Part shown: piece after piece, positions 10,821-16,236 of the stretch
Numbering within the stretch: position 1 is the first letter of the stretch
Layout: each line of letters begins with the position of its first letter
NCBI RefSeq assembly: GCF_900142675.1
Contig: NZ_FRBS01000005.1
Location: forward strand, 125,134-189,133
DNA length: 64,000 nucleotides
Reading direction: 5' to 3'
From: Shouchella rhizosphaerae
GTDB taxonomy: Bacteria; Bacillota; Bacilli; Bacillales; Bacillaceae_D
Notes under the pieces: model-generated
What the model was told of the DNA's origin: nothing
The model's input: only the letters and a program-made list of their open reading frames with translations
Database searches by the model: none
Position numbers and translations under genes: made by a program

Positions 10821-10892
10821 ATCTGATGGCCAAAGCAGACATGTTTCTGTTCCATCTCACAGTAGCTAGCTGAACATCGACAAAAAAGAAAA

Positions 10893-10924
10893 AAGGCTGT
10901 TGAAATTCATTTCTCAACAGCCTT
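10893..10924 (-). terminator. Terminator of the glucitol-type PTS operon
   Basis: AAGGCTGTTGA/TCAACAGCCTT stem of 11 bp followed on the minus strand by TTTTCTTTTTT. It lies just after the stop of the regulator gene; A/T-rich flanks could also stop the protease transcript. Confidence 0.85.
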
Positions 10925-10932
10925 CATCCGTT

Positions 10933-11871
10933 TTAATGATCCAATAGCATTCGTGCAGTCAGATCATCCGTTATAAGCACGTGTATTAACTTTGCACGAA
11001 GTGCGGCTTTAATCGCTTTGACCTTTTCCTTCCCACTTGCTACACCAATCACAAGAGGAATTTGTTTTACATGGTCTAAATCCATCGAAATGACTCTGGC
11101 ATTCCAATCATTATCAATCGTACAACCGTCTTCTCCGATAAAATTGTAACAAATATCGCCTACGATGTTCTCATACTCGATTACGCCTTTTGTCTGCTGG
11201 AGATAAGACTTCACCATTGTCGAGTGCTCTGGTGTTCCCCCTATGCCGACCATGGCAATATCCGCTTTTGCGCCAATCTCAAAAATCTCTCTAATCGAAG
11301 ACTGATTGACTATGATCTCCTTTGCTTCCTTTGAATCGACTAGTACGGGAGCATGCAACAACTTGCACTTCGCTTTAAGGACATCAGCCAGCTTGGCAAC
11401 AATTTGGTTGGCATGAATGTCGACTCTTTCATGGCCCATTCCACCGACGAGAGGGATGAATTGCACGTTTGGAAAGTGCTGGCTAGATGACAATGCCATC
11501 GCCACTTCATACAAAGTCGTCCCAGAGCTCATGCCAATTGTTTGGCCATCGCGAATCATCCGCAACAAATAATGGCTTGCTGCTTGTCCCATCCGCGCTT
11601 TAGAAGCATCATTTTCGTTGGATTCTACACAAACAACTTCCCGTAATCCATAGCGTTTCTCTACTTTCGATTCCAATCCGGTAAATGGATGTGTGTCGTG
11701 ATCATGAATAATAATCTCTACCACACCCAACTCCCTTGCTTTCGCTAAATACTTTGAAATAAGCGGCCGACTTACACCGATGGCCTGGGCAATTTCCGAT
11801 TGTGTCGCCCCTTCCTCGTAATACATTTGGGCGATTTTTACTAAAAGTCTTCGATCTCCCAAAAGTGACAT
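10933..11871 (-). CDS. SorC family transcriptional regulator
   Basis: DNA-binding sugar-phosphate-responsive regulator, 312 residues. The N-terminal helix-turn-helix (GATQSEIAQAIGVSRPLIS) is followed by the SorC/DeoR-type sugar-binding domain with GMSSGTTLYEVA and IAMVGIGGTPEHS. It is the last gene of the PTS operon, 53 bases after srlB, and likely controls that operon through the CATATG palindromes upstream of the first gene. Such proteins may activate or repress. The effector is probably the phosphorylated PTS substrate, which is unknown here. Confidence 0.9.
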   Translation of the reverse strand: MSLLGDRRLLVKIAQMYYEEGATQSEIAQAIGVSRPLISKYLAKARELGVVEIIIHDHDTHPFTGLESKVEKRYGLREVVCVESNENDASKARMGQAASHYLLRMIRDGQTIGMSSGTTLYEVAMALSSSQHFPNVQFIPLVGGMGHERVDIHANQIVAKLADVLKAKCKLLHAPVLVDSKEAKEIIVNQSSIREIFEIGAKADIAMVGIGGTPEHSTMVKSYLQQTKGVIEYENIVGDICYNFIGEDGCTIDNDWNARVISMDLDHVKQIPLVIGVASGKEKVKAIKAALRAKLIHVLITDDLTARMLLDH

Positions 11872-11924
11872 TTGACCACCCTATCCTGTGGTTTTACATT
11901 ACAAGATTTCCAACTATTATTGTA

Positions 11925-12281
11925 CTACTTAAATGTGATTTTGCTACCCTTTTCTATAACAGGAAATGTATGCGGACTGGCAAACACGGCACCAGGCAAT
12001 ACTTCTTCTTGCGGTTCTGTAAAGTAAATCGAGATGTGGCCCAATGTCCGTAAATTTTCATTTGCAGCCGAACCGACTTTTTCGATTACAAATTCCTGTT
12101 CATCAATAACGAGTGTACCGCCTTCTTTAATGGGGTTGTCTTCAAATTCCCCGTCTACTTGGTGGAGGAATGAAATTTCCTTAAGTTCTGCTGGCGCTTC
12201 CATCCCAAAAAGAATGACGATTTTGTCGTCTGCAAAAGAGGGGGCCATCTGTCCAATTTCTTTTACGATTGTTTGATACAT
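11925..12281 (-). CDS. srlB: PTS glucitol/sorbitol-type IIA component
   Basis: Soluble phosphocarrier of the Gut PTS family, 118 residues, passing phosphate from HPr to the IIB domain. It matches the SrlB family by length and by its beta-rich sequence, including FGMEAPAELKEISFLHQ with the probable active-site His. The start follows TAAGGAGGAAAAAG. It is 12 bases after srlE in the same operon. The family normally serves glucitol, but the operon has no sorbitol-6-phosphate dehydrogenase, so the sugar may differ. Confidence 0.88.
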   Translation of the reverse strand: MYQTIVKEIGQMAPSFADDKIVILFGMEAPAELKEISFLHQVDGEFEDNPIKEGGTLVIDEQEFVIEKVGSAANENLRTLGHISIYFTEPQEEVLPGAVFASPHTFPVIEKGSKITFK

Positions 12282-12293
12282 TCTTTTTCCTCC

Positions 12294-13307
12294 TTAATAC
12301 ATGCCAAAACTAGCTACGTAGGCAATGACAACAGCCAACACGCCTGTAATCAAGCGGCTATACAGGACGGCAGGCACGCCATACTGCACTGTTTCCGGCT
12401 TCGCTTCTCCTAATGATAACCCAACTGGTACGAAATCAGCTCCCACTTGGCCATTAATCGCAAATAAGGCTGGTAACGCAAATTGCGGCGGAATATTCCC
12501 AAGCGCAATTTGGCTACCGATCAAGACACCGATTACCTGGGCAATGACCGCCCCTGGACCTAGCACTGGCGATAAAAACGGCAGCGTGCAGATCATCACA
12601 ATGATGATTAAGCCCCAAATCGAGCTAGCAAGCGGCGACATCGTATTGGCAATCAAATCACCGATACCCGTGTAATTGATAATGCCAATCAACATGCTTA
12701 CAAAAGCCATGAACGGGATGATATTTTTAATAAGCATGTCAATTGAATCACGTCCGGCCTGATAAAATACACCAGTGACTTTTCCGATCCCCTTTGAAAA
12801 ACGCATGAGCCAGTTATCATTTTGGGAACGATGCTCATTTTTGACTTTTTCGTACTCTTCCTTAAATTCTTCTTTATTTGCTGGATTGAAACGATTCTCT
12901 TCCTCTGCAGGGGCTAAATCGTGCTTCTCCTCTGTTGCTTCTGCCAAAGACACTTCTTTCGGTGTAACACCAGAGACGAAAATGTCTTCTTTGATATGTT
13001 TTGCCAATGGGCCTGATGGAGAAGAAGCGAGAATATCAACTGTAGGAATTCGTTTCATTGGGTATAGTCCAATTCTAGCGGTTCCGCCGCAGTCAATCAC
13101 GACACACATCATTTCATCTTCTGGGACTGAATTTTTGAAGCCATCGACTGCTTCTGCCCCAGTCAATTCAGCAATGCGTTGGGCGACAGGGTGAATTCCC
13201 CCGCCTGTGATTGACACGACTTTCGTCTTTTTCCCTTTCGGTTCAATGCGGAGGCCAGTCCCCCACCCGCCTGAGCCTTTGCTGATAAATACGGCTTTAT
13301 ATGCCAT
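12294..13307 (-). CDS. srlE: PTS glucitol/sorbitol-type IIBC (N-terminal half) SrlE
   Basis: Membrane PTS component, 337 residues. The N-terminal IIB part begins [17 protein letters not shown] and holds the probable phosphocysteine in [12 protein letters not shown]; the C-terminal part has several helices ([19 protein letters not shown] onwards). Together with SrlA it forms the split IIC channel typical of the Gut family. Start at 13307 after AGGAGGGGAAACGGC, 17 bases behind srlA. The central linker is longer and more acidic than in E. coli SrlE. Confidence 0.9.
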
Positions 13308-13323
13308 GCCGTTTCCCCTCCTG

Positions 13324-13839
13324 TCACATTCTCTTCATCAGGTATTTTGTGATTTGCTCCGTCAGTAACCCTCTGATCAGCATAACCAGAATACCGACCA
13401 GGAAAAACCGCACTGCTAACTCTGACGTCGAGTACCCTGCTTGTGTCAATCCATTCGCTATGCCGAGATAGACAAACAGCTCCCCAGCGTTTGCGTATGG
13501 AAATAAGGCTGTAACCGGATGCAAAAATGACACGAGCGAATCAAAGAAAGCAGGTTTTTGGCGCTCTTCGACAAAACGCCCAAACGTGTAAGCCATTGGA
13601 TTGGTAAGCAATAGAATCGATAGAATTGGCATAAGGGTGTAACGTAGTAGTGCATATTTTGAAGTGAAACGAATCGCTTTCGTGACCCGTTCCTCCCCGA
13701 TAAATTTAATGAGTGCGTAAGTGAAAGTTAGTAAAACGACTAGCGTTGGGACAATGCCAGTAAGGAGATTCATGAATTGTTCTCCACCTGCATTAAACAT
13801 GCCGATAAAGTGCTCGCCGAACCATTCAATCCAGTCCAT
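13324..13839 (-). CDS. srlA: PTS glucitol/sorbitol-type IIC2 component SrlA
   Basis: Integral membrane subunit of the Gut-family PTS channel, 171 residues and about four helices, close to the usual length of the family. [18 protein letters not shown] and the [12 protein letters not shown] stretch fit SrlA. ATG 13839 is chosen because AAAAGGAGTG lies 6-8 bases ahead, whereas the GTG at 13848 overlaps the ribosome site. It follows gutM by 15 bases and belongs to the same transcript. Confidence 0.88.
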
Positions 13840-13854
13840 CTTTTTCACTCCTTT

Positions 13855-14274
13855 TTAAGAAATCGAGGTCGTTCTCCTCGTCTTTGAAATCGCTGTGAGT
13901 GCTTGCTCGCCAGCCGCCTGTAAGGCCGTTTGCAATGCAGGAGACTTGCGTTTTTTTTCTGAAGTGTGAAGCCTGTCCAACAGCTCGCCCAAGTGCATTC
14001 CTTCGTATTCTTCCATCTCTTTAAACGTAGACAGAATGCTTACCCCTCGCATACACTGGCACTCTTGGATGATGTAAGACTCATCTACTACTAAGAGAAC
14101 GATAGAACCAGGCCCGATTCGACGGCGGGATTGTCCTGAGAAAAGGTGGTACCCCTTTTCCCCTTTATATTTTCCAACTAGTGCTTTCATCGATTTTTGG
14201 TAATAGCGAACTTGGATTGCAGTCAACGCTGATTGAATGAGCAACAGACAGCAAGCAATTAGTACAAGCTTCAT
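13855..14274 (-). CDS. gutM: GutM-family glucitol operon activator protein
   Basis: Small membrane-anchored protein of 139 residues. One N-terminal hydrophobic helix follows MKLVLIACC, then a cytoplasmic domain with GQSRRRIGPGSIVLL and VDESYIIQECQCMRG, typical of GutM, which positively affects gut operon expression in enterics by an incompletely known mechanism. The frame is open to 14322, overlapping the preceding gene, but ATG 14274 has GGAGAAGGTGGAT just before it. It lies between the oxidoreductase and srlA. Confidence 0.82.
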   Translation of the reverse strand: MKLVLIACCLLLIQSALTAIQVRYYQKSMKALVGKYKGEKGYHLFSGQSRRRIGPGSIVLLVVDESYIIQECQCMRGVSILSTFKEMEEYEGMHLGELLDRLHTSEKKRKSPALQTALQAAGEQALTAISKTRRTTSIS

Positions 14275-14290
14275 ATCCACCTTCTCCTTG

Positions 14291-15547
14291 TTATTCAGCA
14301 AATAAATGGTCTTGCAATGCACGCAGTTTCCAAACGGTCGTCATTGTGTCGAGTTCGACATCATCCATCGTTAAAAACTGCCCTTCTTCAATGGCTCGTT
14401 TTGCGACCACATTGCCACTAATTAGGCCAATCGGTATATGGCCATTCCGCTTCATATCCTGATGTGTTTCCAACATGCCTCTTACGCTATAGCCGCCAAT
14501 TCCATCTAGTCTCTCACCTGGCTGAATCGCGCGTTTTGCAACTGCTACGGTTTCAGAAACCGGTGCACCAAGGGGATGAATCGACGTATCATGATGAAGC
14601 ACTGCCTTAGCAATCGTAATGGGTGTTTCTAAGCTTGCCAGATGGTACGGACGGTATAACGTGTAATGCGGTCCATGGTTGGCGTTGACTTTTAACAAGT
14701 AGCGCAGTTCTTCATCTACAGGTTCCAACTCACTTTTGACAATGACGAACACCCCAGGTGCTAAACCGTTTACATATTCTACAACACCAAGTGAATCAAG
14801 GACGCCGCCGTGTTCTTTCAAATCTAGCTTCTTAGCGACATTATCTAAGTTAGCGTCGACTCCATGCATCCCGACTTTATCTGGCACAAGCCCAATCGCA
14901 TTGCTCAATAAATTCATCTCAGCCATTGTCTTCGTGCCATCCTGGAATGCTGCCAGCATATGTGCGCTCATATGTTTCTGTTTGGCTTCCTCTGCACATG
15001 TGTCAGGATTGGCTGTTGGCTTAAGTGGGTTGTTTTTACCTTTTCCTGCTACGACTACTTCTAGTCCCATTGTTTTCGCGAATTCATAAAGTTCTACAAT
15101 TGCTGCCGGCTCGTCCCCTGCTGAACCAGAATAGACAAGACCAGCCGCATCGAACATGCTATGCATATATGATCCGATCGTAATGTCTACTTCAACATTT
15201 AGCAGCACAAGATGCTTTCTTGAACGAAGCGCCTCCAAGGCAATATTGGCACCGACTTCGGGGACGCCCGTTGCATCGACGACCACCTCTACTGTATTTG
15301 ATTGGATAACTGCCCGGTAATCAGAAGAAACAACCGTCTCCACTTTTCTATTTTCTTGAGAACGGTAAAAATCACGGGCTTTTTCTGCATTTTCAATATG
15401 GACATCGCAAATCCCACCAACGACCATTCCTGGGATCCGAGAGATTTGAGAAATTAAACCGAATCCCATTTGACCGGCACCGATTACTCCCACTTTGATT
15501 GGCTGTTGTTGTTTATCACGCTCTTGTAATTCCCGATAAATGGACAT
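14291..15547 (-). CDS. SAF-domain NAD(P)-dependent oxidoreductase, homoserine-dehydrogenase-like
   Basis: First gene of the PTS operon, 418 residues. The N-terminal Rossmann fold has VGVIGAGQMGFGLISQ; the middle resembles the homoserine dehydrogenase-like NAD(P)-binding family (GVPEVGANIALEALRSRKH). The C-terminal third contains an SAF-type domain (AIEEGQFLTMDDVEL). It is the only metabolic enzyme in the operon, so it probably oxidises or rearranges the imported polyol or sugar phosphate. Its reaction is not known to me. ATG 15547 follows CGAGGAGGAAGATGT. A sorbitol-6-phosphate dehydrogenase is absent, making this the candidate replacement. Confidence 0.8.
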   Translation of the reverse strand: MSIYRELQERDKQQQPIKVGVIGAGQMGFGLISQISRIPGMVVGGICDVHIENAEKARDFYRSQENRKVETVVSSDYRAVIQSNTVEVVVDATGVPEVGANIALEALRSRKHLVLLNVEVDITIGSYMHSMFDAAGLVYSGSAGDEPAAIVELYEFAKTMGLEVVVAGKGKNNPLKPTANPDTCAEEAKQKHMSAHMLAAFQDGTKTMAEMNLLSNAIGLVPDKVGMHGVDANLDNVAKKLDLKEHGGVLDSLGVVEYVNGLAPGVFVIVKSELEPVDEELRYLLKVNANHGPHYTLYRPYHLASLETPITIAKAVLHHDTSIHPLGAPVSETVAVAKRAIQPGERLDGIGGYSVRGMLETHQDMKRNGHIPIGLISGNVVAKRAIEEGQFLTMDDVELDTMTTVWKLRALQDHLFAE

Positions 15548-15584
15548 ACATCTTCCTCCTCGTTTTTAGAACGAATCTCCTTTT

Positions 15585-15654
15585 ACATATGTTACACATC
15601 ATGGTATTAGTTTAAATTACGTAACATATGTTACAAGTTATATCATATGATATA
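15585..15654 (-). promoter_or_regulatory. Three CATATG-centred palindromes upstream of the PTS operon
   Basis: GTAACATATGTTAC at 15621-15634 is a perfect 14-bp palindrome. TATATCATATGATATA at 15639-15654 is a perfect 16-bp one, and TTTACATATGTTAC at 15582-15595 is a near copy of the first. Centres are 39 and 19 bp apart. They are the likely operator set for the SorC-type regulator at the operon end. Confidence 0.65.
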
Positions 15655-15680
15655 AACTTATTTGTTATTGTATTCTCTCG

Positions 15681-15694
15681 AGAAAGCGTTGTCA
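15681..15694. promoter_or_regulatory. CcpA cre site upstream of the PTS operon
   Basis: AGAAAGCGTTGTCA matches 13 of 14 positions of the consensus TGWAANCGNTNWCA. It lies beyond the palindromes, about 135 bp from the first start codon, and suggests catabolite control of the operon. Confidence 0.6.
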
Positions 15695-15793
15695 AATCTT
15701 TTTTCAGAAAAAGGACATGATGCTCTTTTCTCTAGCTGTGGCAAAGTGGACCCAAGACTTTTGCTTACTACAAGGAAGGGAATCGTTCTTTAA

Positions 15794-15831: not shown

Positions 15832-16083
15832 TTATTTTCCTTCTAAAAATCTGCTTAATCCTTCAATCGCAGCTTCCTCATCTGCACCTTCGGCAGTCAA
15901 CAACACGTCATCTCCCTTTTGGACAACGATGCTCATTAAGCCAAGAATGCTTTTGGCGTTAATCGTTGAATTTCCTTTCTTAAGGTAGACATCCGCTTTG
16001 TACTGCCCTGCTTCATGGACAAATGCCGAAGCAGCATTCGCATGGAGGCCATGTTCGAGTCCGACCGTAACCGTTTTTTCCAT
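15832..16083 (-). CDS. HPr/Crh-like phosphocarrier protein with altered active-site loop
   Basis: HPr-fold protein of 83 residues. The site phosphorylated by Enzyme I (His14, equivalent to His15 of HPr) is present in EHGLHANAASAF, but Asn and Ala replace the invariant Arg17 and Pro18. Ser45 in NAKSILGLMS matches the HPrK/P target Ser46, and the following hydrophobic helix is intact. B. subtilis Crh, in contrast, lacks the His but keeps the Arg-Pro. ATG 16083 is chosen over 16113 because of GGAGAGAGGTAAAG. It is transcribed alone, directly upstream of the PTS operon. It could act in CcpA control, in phosphotransfer with low efficiency, or in a dedicated pathway; none is shown by the sequence. 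Confidence 0.85.
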   Translation of the reverse strand: MEKTVTVGLEHGLHANAASAFVHEAGQYKADVYLKKGNSTINAKSILGLMSIVVQKGDDVLLTAEGADEEAAIEGLSRFLEGK

Positions 16084-16236
16084 CTTTACCTCTCTCCTTT
16101 CTTCTGGAATCATCTATATGCAGGCTTCACATGAAAATACCGAGGAACAAGAACTTCTTGCGAAAACAGTCATTGTTGCCAAACGGACATCATAAAAATA
16201 AAACAACTGGACAAGAACAAGGAAAGGCGGGATCGT

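Follow-up and report, generated by a model that had tools for sequence, protein, structure and literature searches.

A Gut-type phosphotransferase operon led by a DXR-II-type oxidoreductase in Shouchella rhizosphaerae, a candidate route for methylerythritol catabolism

In the genome of Shouchella rhizosphaerae, six genes on one minus-strand run (positions 15547-10933 of a 64,000-nucleotide stretch of contig NZ_FRBS01000005.1, referred to here as the window) encode, in this order, the oxidoreductase DRL, GutM, the SrlA, SrlE and SrlB subunits of a Gut-family phosphotransferase system (PTS), and a SorC-type regulator. The oxidoreductase is a full-length enzyme of the DXR-II/DRL type (reductoisomerase-like for 1-deoxy-D-xylulose 5-phosphate, DXP), with predicted activity on 2-C-methyl-D-erythritol 4-phosphate (MEP) and DXP. 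We consider it rather probable that this operon serves to take up and break down a methyl-branched tetritol, with 2-C-methyl-D-erythritol (ME) as the likeliest candidate, via MEP and DXP. The substrate, the direction and cofactor of the enzyme, the splitting reaction and the role of an upstream palindrome are what we infer from comparisons of sequences, modelled structure and gene neighbourhoods.

DXR-type enzymes convert DXP to MEP, and several lines of evidence place the window protein among them. Its DRL_cat domain (PF21135; 8e-61, 205 bits against a cut-off of 27) lies between a NAD-binding domain (24.7 bits, cut-off 24) and an SAF domain (34.3 bits, cut-off 21). The only matches in a PDB sequence search at E<=0.001 were 3UPL/3UPY, the DRL of Brucella abortus (E~1e-99, residues 3-416), which has the same domains and is 38-39% identical over its full length. 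The AlphaFold model, with a mean pLDDT of 87.5 and a weak stretch at residues 300-304 (pLDDT < 50), matches 3UPL with a TM-score of 0.92-0.93 by query length, against 0.45 for the best other fold among 50 listed. All five of the DXR-II residues K191, K193, T229, H250 and R320 (Brucella numbering) are kept, as are G121, E174, F178, Y322 and V351, also named for DXR-II (PMC3847144), while 12 DLO-like loci (L062-L073), at 27-30% identity and with a correspondingly less sure alignment, are without K191, T229 and R320. The initial annotation had called the enzyme homoserine-dehydrogenase-like and its pathway unfamiliar; the first description holds for the NAD-binding domain, but no homoserine dehydrogenase catalytic domain was found and the model NF004976 scores 28 bits against a cut-off of 205, which rules out homoserine metabolism. 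The chemistry, for its part, can be narrowed to that of a family of 53 members, 11 of them verified to make MEP, whose list includes sequences from Bacillus clausii, B. halodurans, B. pumilus and Listeria (PMC3847144). Unlike the Brucella enzyme, the window DRL sits in a Gut-PTS operon, and its host also has a canonical DXR-I.

A search for SAF-domain oxidoreductases next to srlABE, as the initial annotation had proposed, ties the enzyme to this uptake system and leads to the specific pathway proposed here. Sampled without ranking, 299 genomes of the order yielded 45 DRL_cat matches, spread over 42 genomes; 39 of these matches besides that of the window were taken with their flanks and five weak ones (64 to 111 bits) were left out. 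Counting loci with at least 43% identity to the window protein as DXR-II-type gave 27 loci in 26 genomes, the window among them. Of the 26 loci other than the window, 24 have Gut-PTS genes no more than 6 kb away. The two exceptions are L035, with its PTS about 10.5 kb off beyond an E1 operon (L208), and L052, where the contig end carries a 27-residue SrlA start (3e-5); with these and the window included, all 27 loci have a Gut PTS within 11 kb. At the distant DRL_cat loci (27-36% identity), by comparison, neither PTS nor E1 genes were found in any of the 13 with flanks.

A second association concerns a candidate splitting enzyme, an E1/E2/E3 complex dependent on thiamine pyrophosphate (TPP). 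Linked E1 genes occur at 18 of the 26 non-window DXR-II-type loci, and one E1beta subfamily (E<=1e-150) occurs in 26 of the 299 genomes, distributed over 20 of 116 genera: 24 of the 26 DRL genomes and 2 of the 273 others (Fisher p 6e-31, relatedness ignored). Among the 40 genomes with EII-GUT, it is present in 24 of 26 with DRL vs none of 14 without (p 5e-9, again ignoring relatedness), which indicates that the complex tracks DRL and not the PTS. The DRL genomes without this E1beta are the window's own and G201, whose locus (L060) has a set of aldolase II, TIM-like and YjbQ genes. At L055-L057 the E1beta is present yet more than 200 kb from DRL, and two of these three DRL segments match loci of B. 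safensis and B. altitudinis exactly.

The same modules recur in named genomes and on plasmids. A ranked scan of named genomes, from which the best 79 loci among at least 587 relatives were kept and which is therefore not a fair sample, listed PTS genes within 6 kb at 57 loci (after subtraction of one spurious 64-residue 'SrlE' piece at L133), E1 genes at 28 and an aldolase II and/or TIM-like gene at 11; where 8 kb was available on both sides, 5 of 49 loci had none of the PTS, E1 and aldolase/TIM-like modules. At L035, L133 and the Priestia plasmid locus L193, a major facilitator superfamily (MFS) transporter and an FGGY kinase accompany DRL and the stretch also contains E1-E3 genes, although at L133 only E2 and E3 are within reach. 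Plasmid records with a match numbered 88, and 12 of the 14 selected ones that were opened are alphaproteobacterial. Ten of these 12 loci carry DRL-E1a-E1b-E2 in a row, joined by a Gut PTS with a dedicated enzyme I (L195, L212, L215, L216) or by an ATP-binding cassette (ABC) transporter and a sugar kinase (L192, L213, L214, L217), with no uptake module immediately beside the block in L197 and L219. The use of a PTS in some loci and of a permease plus kinase in others suggests that the intermediate is phosphorylated, which would fit MEP.

In the pathway that we propose, the Gut-family PTS (SrlA/SrlE/SrlB) would take up ME and phosphorylate it to MEP, and DRL, probably with NAD+, would convert MEP back to DXP. 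PTS uptake phosphorylates polyols, and DXP (CH3-CO-CHOH-R) is a methyl acyloin like acetoin; moreover, to go by the title of a cited work, pyruvate and acetoin dehydrogenase reportedly form 1-deoxyketoses. A mutant pyruvate dehydrogenase E1 raised DXP about 20-fold in E. coli without DXS and DXR (PMC3424233). Taken together, the acyloin structure, the mutant E1 and the 1-deoxyketose title suggest a route from ME through MEP and DXP to acetyl-CoA and glyceraldehyde 3-phosphate, in which, in most relatives, the E1/E2/E3 complex would split DXP with CoA and NAD+. In some other relatives an aldolase II/TIM-like module may take the place of the complex; speculatively, DXP would then be isomerised and cleaved into dihydroxyacetone phosphate and acetaldehyde. 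Genes for aldolase II, an archaeal-type TIM-like protein and YjbQ lie near DRL at L060, L098, L104, L111, L135 and L145, a possible alternative means of splitting. The DRL-adjacent E1a/E1b/E2/E3 set of relatives has the make-up of acetoin dehydrogenase (AcoABCL), but its E1beta forms a subfamily of its own in a quick tree of 36 selected rows with long branches, is at most 51% identical to that of the acetoin-dehydrogenase-like operon of the window's genome, and belongs to a complex that curated models name pyruvate dehydrogenase and that this genome lacks.

The nucleotide-binding site offers a clue to the cofactor. In Rossmann folds the residue after strand beta-2 selects between NAD and NADP, an acid there being a classic sign of NAD(H) use. 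In the model of the window DRL this strand ends at residue 47 and is followed by Asp48, where the Brucella enzyme has Ala and then Arg, a difference that suggests NAD+ instead of NADPH; the window enzyme thus probably uses NAD+. Asp occupies this position in 90 of 91 DRLs linked to PTS, E1, kinase or aldolase genes (two sets pooled, duplicates included), the lone exception (L132_4062) lying beside a second DRL, and the 12 alphaproteobacterial DRLs are all acidic here (Asp or Glu). In seven Tissierellia-type DRLs without linked genes the residue is Asn or Ser, and the next one Arg or Asn.

Several observations weigh against ME catabolism as set out here. The window's genome itself has no match to the E1beta subfamily at E<=1e-150 and none to the TIM-like protein over its cut-off, its best E1a being 48% identical and located in the acetoin-dehydrogenase-like operon (L078), the only splitting-enzyme candidate found there. 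The E1beta subfamily also occurs without DRL in G155 and G211, and the E1 operon of two of three B. pumilus-like genomes has as neighbours a Gat-like PTS permease and a medium-chain (MDR) dehydrogenase (identified by Pfam test for the L201 MDR and the L204 Gat permease), so the complex may serve other substrates. It could also simply be a pyruvate dehydrogenase, since NCBIfam names the L053 E1a as such (397.7 bits, cut-off 393.85). MEP is said to be the favoured side of the DXR reaction. Among the named loci, 22 of 79 were listed without a PTS gene within 6 kb, some of them cut by contig ends; two of the 12 alphaproteobacterial plasmid loci (L196, L218) lack the E1 block and have sugar ABC genes upstream; and some DRL operons combine a divergent PTS with MDR and 2-hydroxyacid dehydrogenases. 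Finally, 11 DRLs without linked genes, including three linked to ispD/ispF, also carry Asp after beta-2 (some of these loci are cut short), so this residue is not a clean marker of direction.

The missing splitting module would be accounted for if the PTS imported apiitol (2-C-hydroxymethyl-erythritol) and DRL turned its phosphate into D-xylulose 5-phosphate, which would need no further enzyme to enter the pentose phosphate pathway. Such a module is absent from the window operon, from its nearest kin L080, L081 and L083, and from the genome as a whole, and tkt and fsa lie next to DRL and PTS at a plasmid locus of Ligilactobacillus. We nevertheless regard this substrate as unlikely, because it leaves the E1beta subfamily of the DRL genomes unexplained and because the window DRL and SrlA are 74-80% identical to their counterparts in the E1-linked operons L053, L054, L058 and L059, which suggests one substrate for all; moreover, the tested DXR-II members make MEP (PMC3847144).

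Isoprenoid pathway genes in and around DRL hosts bear on whether the enzyme is needed for biosynthesis. DRL kin at 55-60% identity adjoin ispD and/or ispF in three Peptoniphilaceae-type genomes, by curated equivalog models: DRL, ispD and ispF are consecutive in Kallipyga (L117), and at L109 and L110 ispF or ispD is no more than 3 kb from DRL. DXP/MEP chemistry thus seems to be kept in the subfamily. These three genomes have IspG, with DXR-I not found over the cut-off. In a quick tree of 70 selected rows with long branches (L117 among them) and several weak forks, built without the sequences of PMC3847144 itself, the ispD/ispF-linked and unlinked Tissierellia-type DRLs nest within PTS/E1-linked clades. 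A set of 35 genomes was hand-picked from the 79 loci; several are metagenome-assembled, so an absence may reflect an incomplete assembly. IspG and DXR-I are both missing from 10 of them and both present in 12, IspG occurs alone in 12, and DXR-I alone in one (L092); in the 10 with neither and the 12 with both, DRL should not be needed for isoprenoids. The IspG-only genomes carry two DRLs in Anaerococcus (L106), Thermovorax (L113) and Anaerosalibacter (L132) and one in the other nine, and the single DRL of Hakubella (L156) is E1-linked. A PTS-free DRL lineage lying by an HI0933-type flavoprotein (L246, L139 and L132:2802-5351; Pfam-tested in L139 only) is a candidate biosynthetic DXR-II.

The genome of the window has one DRL and a canonical DXR-I (1e-165), so that DRL is not its only DXR, and an MEP pathway able to use MEP is likely. 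On this basis the PTS might merely salvage ME as MEP for isoprenoids, with DRL balancing MEP and DXP for thiamine and vitamin B6. We think this quite improbable, as the 10 genomes with neither IspG nor DXR-I speak against it and the association with E1/E2/E3 and the polyol-PTS setting point to carbon catabolism.

Gut PTSs are classically for glucitol, and with SrlD missing DRL could stand in as a plain dehydrogenase of a linear polyol phosphate, of sorbitol or a relative. The genome, however, has a second Gut locus with SrlB, SrlE, SrlA, GutM, a SorC-type regulator and a sorbitol-6-phosphate dehydrogenase (NF009050, 425 bits, cut-off 307), which shows that the DRL operon is not the sorbitol operon; the two share SrlA, SrlE, SrlB, GutM and the regulator but differ in having DRL in place of SrlD and in the clade of their SrlA. 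In a quick SrlA tree of 50 selected rows with long branches, from which four DRL-less EII-GUT genomes are missing, the copy from the srl operon forms a fully supported set of 12 with those of 10 of the 14 DRL-less EII-GUT genomes and a second copy from G260. The SrlA of the DRL operon falls outside this set and groups with DRL-linked SrlA, and no DRL- or E1-linked SrlA in the tree lies within it. A plain sorbitol operon was rejected on these grounds, the suggestion of the initial annotation that the substrate is something other than sorbitol is probably right, and a linear polyol, given also the conserved DXR-II residues, is very improbable. No DRL_cat or EII-GUT match was found in the four other sampled genomes of the genus. 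That DRL is a second biosynthetic DXR placed by chance in a PTS operon, as the description of DXR-II in the literature as an alternative enzyme of the MEP pathway (PMC3847144), the ispD/ispF neighbours of some kin and the 12 genomes with IspG without DXR-I would allow, is hardly credible beside the PTS linkage of all 27 order-level loci, the nesting of the ispD/ispF-linked and unlinked forms in PTS/E1-linked clades, and the 22 of 35 tested hosts with both or neither of IspG and DXR-I.

As for the operon itself (Table 1), the six genes that the initial annotation had recognised were all recovered in place on the minus strand, with the oxidoreductase first and, as the evidence above supports, central. 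Pfam and curated-model searches found no further enzyme family in the six proteins, and ORF and family searches found no sorbitol-6-phosphate dehydrogenase within 10933-15547, in line with the earlier view of DRL as the only metabolic enzyme. The EII-GUT, EIIBC-GUT and PTSIIA_gutA subunits are all present, confirming membership of the Gut family. The GutM gene likely starts at the ATG at 14274, although the listed GTG-started ORF extends to 14322. L080, L081 and L083 share the gene order, and many further relatives have these genes in a partly changed arrangement, so this is not a chance set. A promoter-like site and a hairpin distal to SorC bracket the six genes as a single unit; scans for the two kinds of signal found 8 and 7 vs 9.2 and 5.6 in shuffled DNA, much the same numbers, so it is by their position that these two signals are supported. 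The cre-like pattern has 17 matches in the window vs 6.9 expected. Rfam and tRNA scans of the window gave 0 matches. An HPr/Crh-like gene (15832-16113) was ruled out as an operon member because a hairpin terminator (15830-15798) intervenes. HPr proteins normally have Arg-Pro next after the active-site His; this minus-strand gene, with its own terminator behind it, keeps the His and has the Arg-Pro replaced (HANAA). Several relatives, too, have HPr-like genes in the vicinity of DRL or E1 genes.

Table 1. Genes and candidate signals of the DRL operon, in window coordinates
Feature	Position	Strand	Evidence or remark
DRL, DXR-II-type oxidoreductase, 418 aa	14291..15547	-	NAD-binding, DRL_cat and SAF domains
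GutM-like protein	13855..14274	-	PF06923 3e-26
SrlA-type PTS EIIC	13324..13848	-	EII-GUT PF03608 1e-75; NF049923 207 bits, cut-off 150
SrlE-type PTS EIIBC	12294..13307	-	EIIBC-GUT: PF03612 3e-73, PF07663 1e-46; NF049924 528 bits, cut-off 400
SrlB-type PTS EIIA	11925..12281	-	PTSIIA_gutA PF03829 5e-37
SorC/DeoR-type sugar-binding regulator	10933..11871	-	Sugar-bind PF04198 5e-65; NF053881 240 bits, under cut-off 420
Promoter-like TTGACA-17-TACAAT of the operon	15667..15695	-	consensus match only, 11/12
Cre-like site, 1 mismatch	15681..15694	.	overlaps promoter-like site; possible catabolite repression
Palindrome GTAACATATGTTAC, proposed SorC operator 1	15621..15634	.	sole perfect copy in the genome
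Palindrome copy 2 (2 mismatches), proposed SorC operator 2	15582..15595	.	39 nt from copy 1; 38-40-nt pair recurs in relatives
Terminator-like hairpin past SorC, end of unit	10892..10925	-	hairpin scan

Between the promoter-like site and DRL lie the two copies of the palindrome GTAACATATGTTAC, and SorC may sense the pathway and bind these paired GTAACAWATGTTAC sites. With up to 2 mismatches in the 250 bp upstream of DRL, the palindrome occurs in 14 of 19 close kin (at least 70% identity, window included), in 6 of 18 at 60-70% and in 0 of 26 more distant ones, compared with 4 of 837 control upstream regions; a pair spaced by 38-40 nt is found in 10 of the 19 close kin when 3 mismatches are allowed. 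At 2-3 mismatches it also stands upstream of E1a in some loci, for example L059, L120 and L125. A genome-wide search for further operator copies, aimed at an unlinked splitting enzyme, yielded no lead: besides the perfect copy of the operon there are two with one mismatch, and a control pattern matches no fewer times.

Other neighbourhoods hint at further polyols. A galactitol-type PTS permease lies near the same E1/E2/E3 operons at L204 (Pfam-tested), with look-alikes at L201, L203 and L206, suggesting another polyol feed. DRL operons at L082, L096, L101 and L249 have a divergent Gut PTS, a zinc alcohol dehydrogenase and a 2-hydroxyacid dehydrogenase-like protein (both dehydrogenases Pfam-tested in L249 only), perhaps for a second polyol. 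In a Thermovorax genome (L247), a second DRL lies by a Gat-like PTS, two MDR dehydrogenases and a transaldolase-family protein. Furthermore, a small protein of about 115 residues with CxxC pairs and no Pfam match is encoded near DRL or E1 genes, at L209:9479-9826 and in a cluster of 12 named loci.

DXR-II is viewed as a patchily distributed second isoprenoid enzyme whose only distribution trait is an excess among animal pathogens, an active copy being found even in a species without detected MEP or mevalonate genes (PMC3847144), and a 2026 review repeats this view in passing (PMC13001223). The terms 'PTS', 'catabol' and 'polyol' are absent from the main text of PMC3847144, as are words beginning 'catabol' from the available parts of PMC13001223 and PMC10663253, which mention DXR-II. 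In the open-licence literature, outside which most subscription papers fall, we found no description of ME or DXP catabolism by such an operon. We give an even chance to the wider proposal that a catabolic pathway running the first MEP-pathway steps in reverse exists in Bacillota, Chloroflexota, Actinomycetota and Alphaproteobacteria, with exchangeable uptake modules (Gut PTS, MFS plus FGGY kinase, ABC plus PfkB kinase) and splitting modules, and that DXR-II is catabolic in origin, its isoprenoid use having been derived more than once. Methylerythritol is said to be released by plants, microbes and atmospheric isoprene oxidation, and the pathway, if true, would be a biological sink for it and offer an NAD-type reductoisomerase for engineering. 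If true, a catabolic role would also answer why DXR-II persists beside DXR-I or without an MEP pathway, and would explain a seemingly redundant enzyme copy in many bacteria in a way that is directly testable with one substrate.

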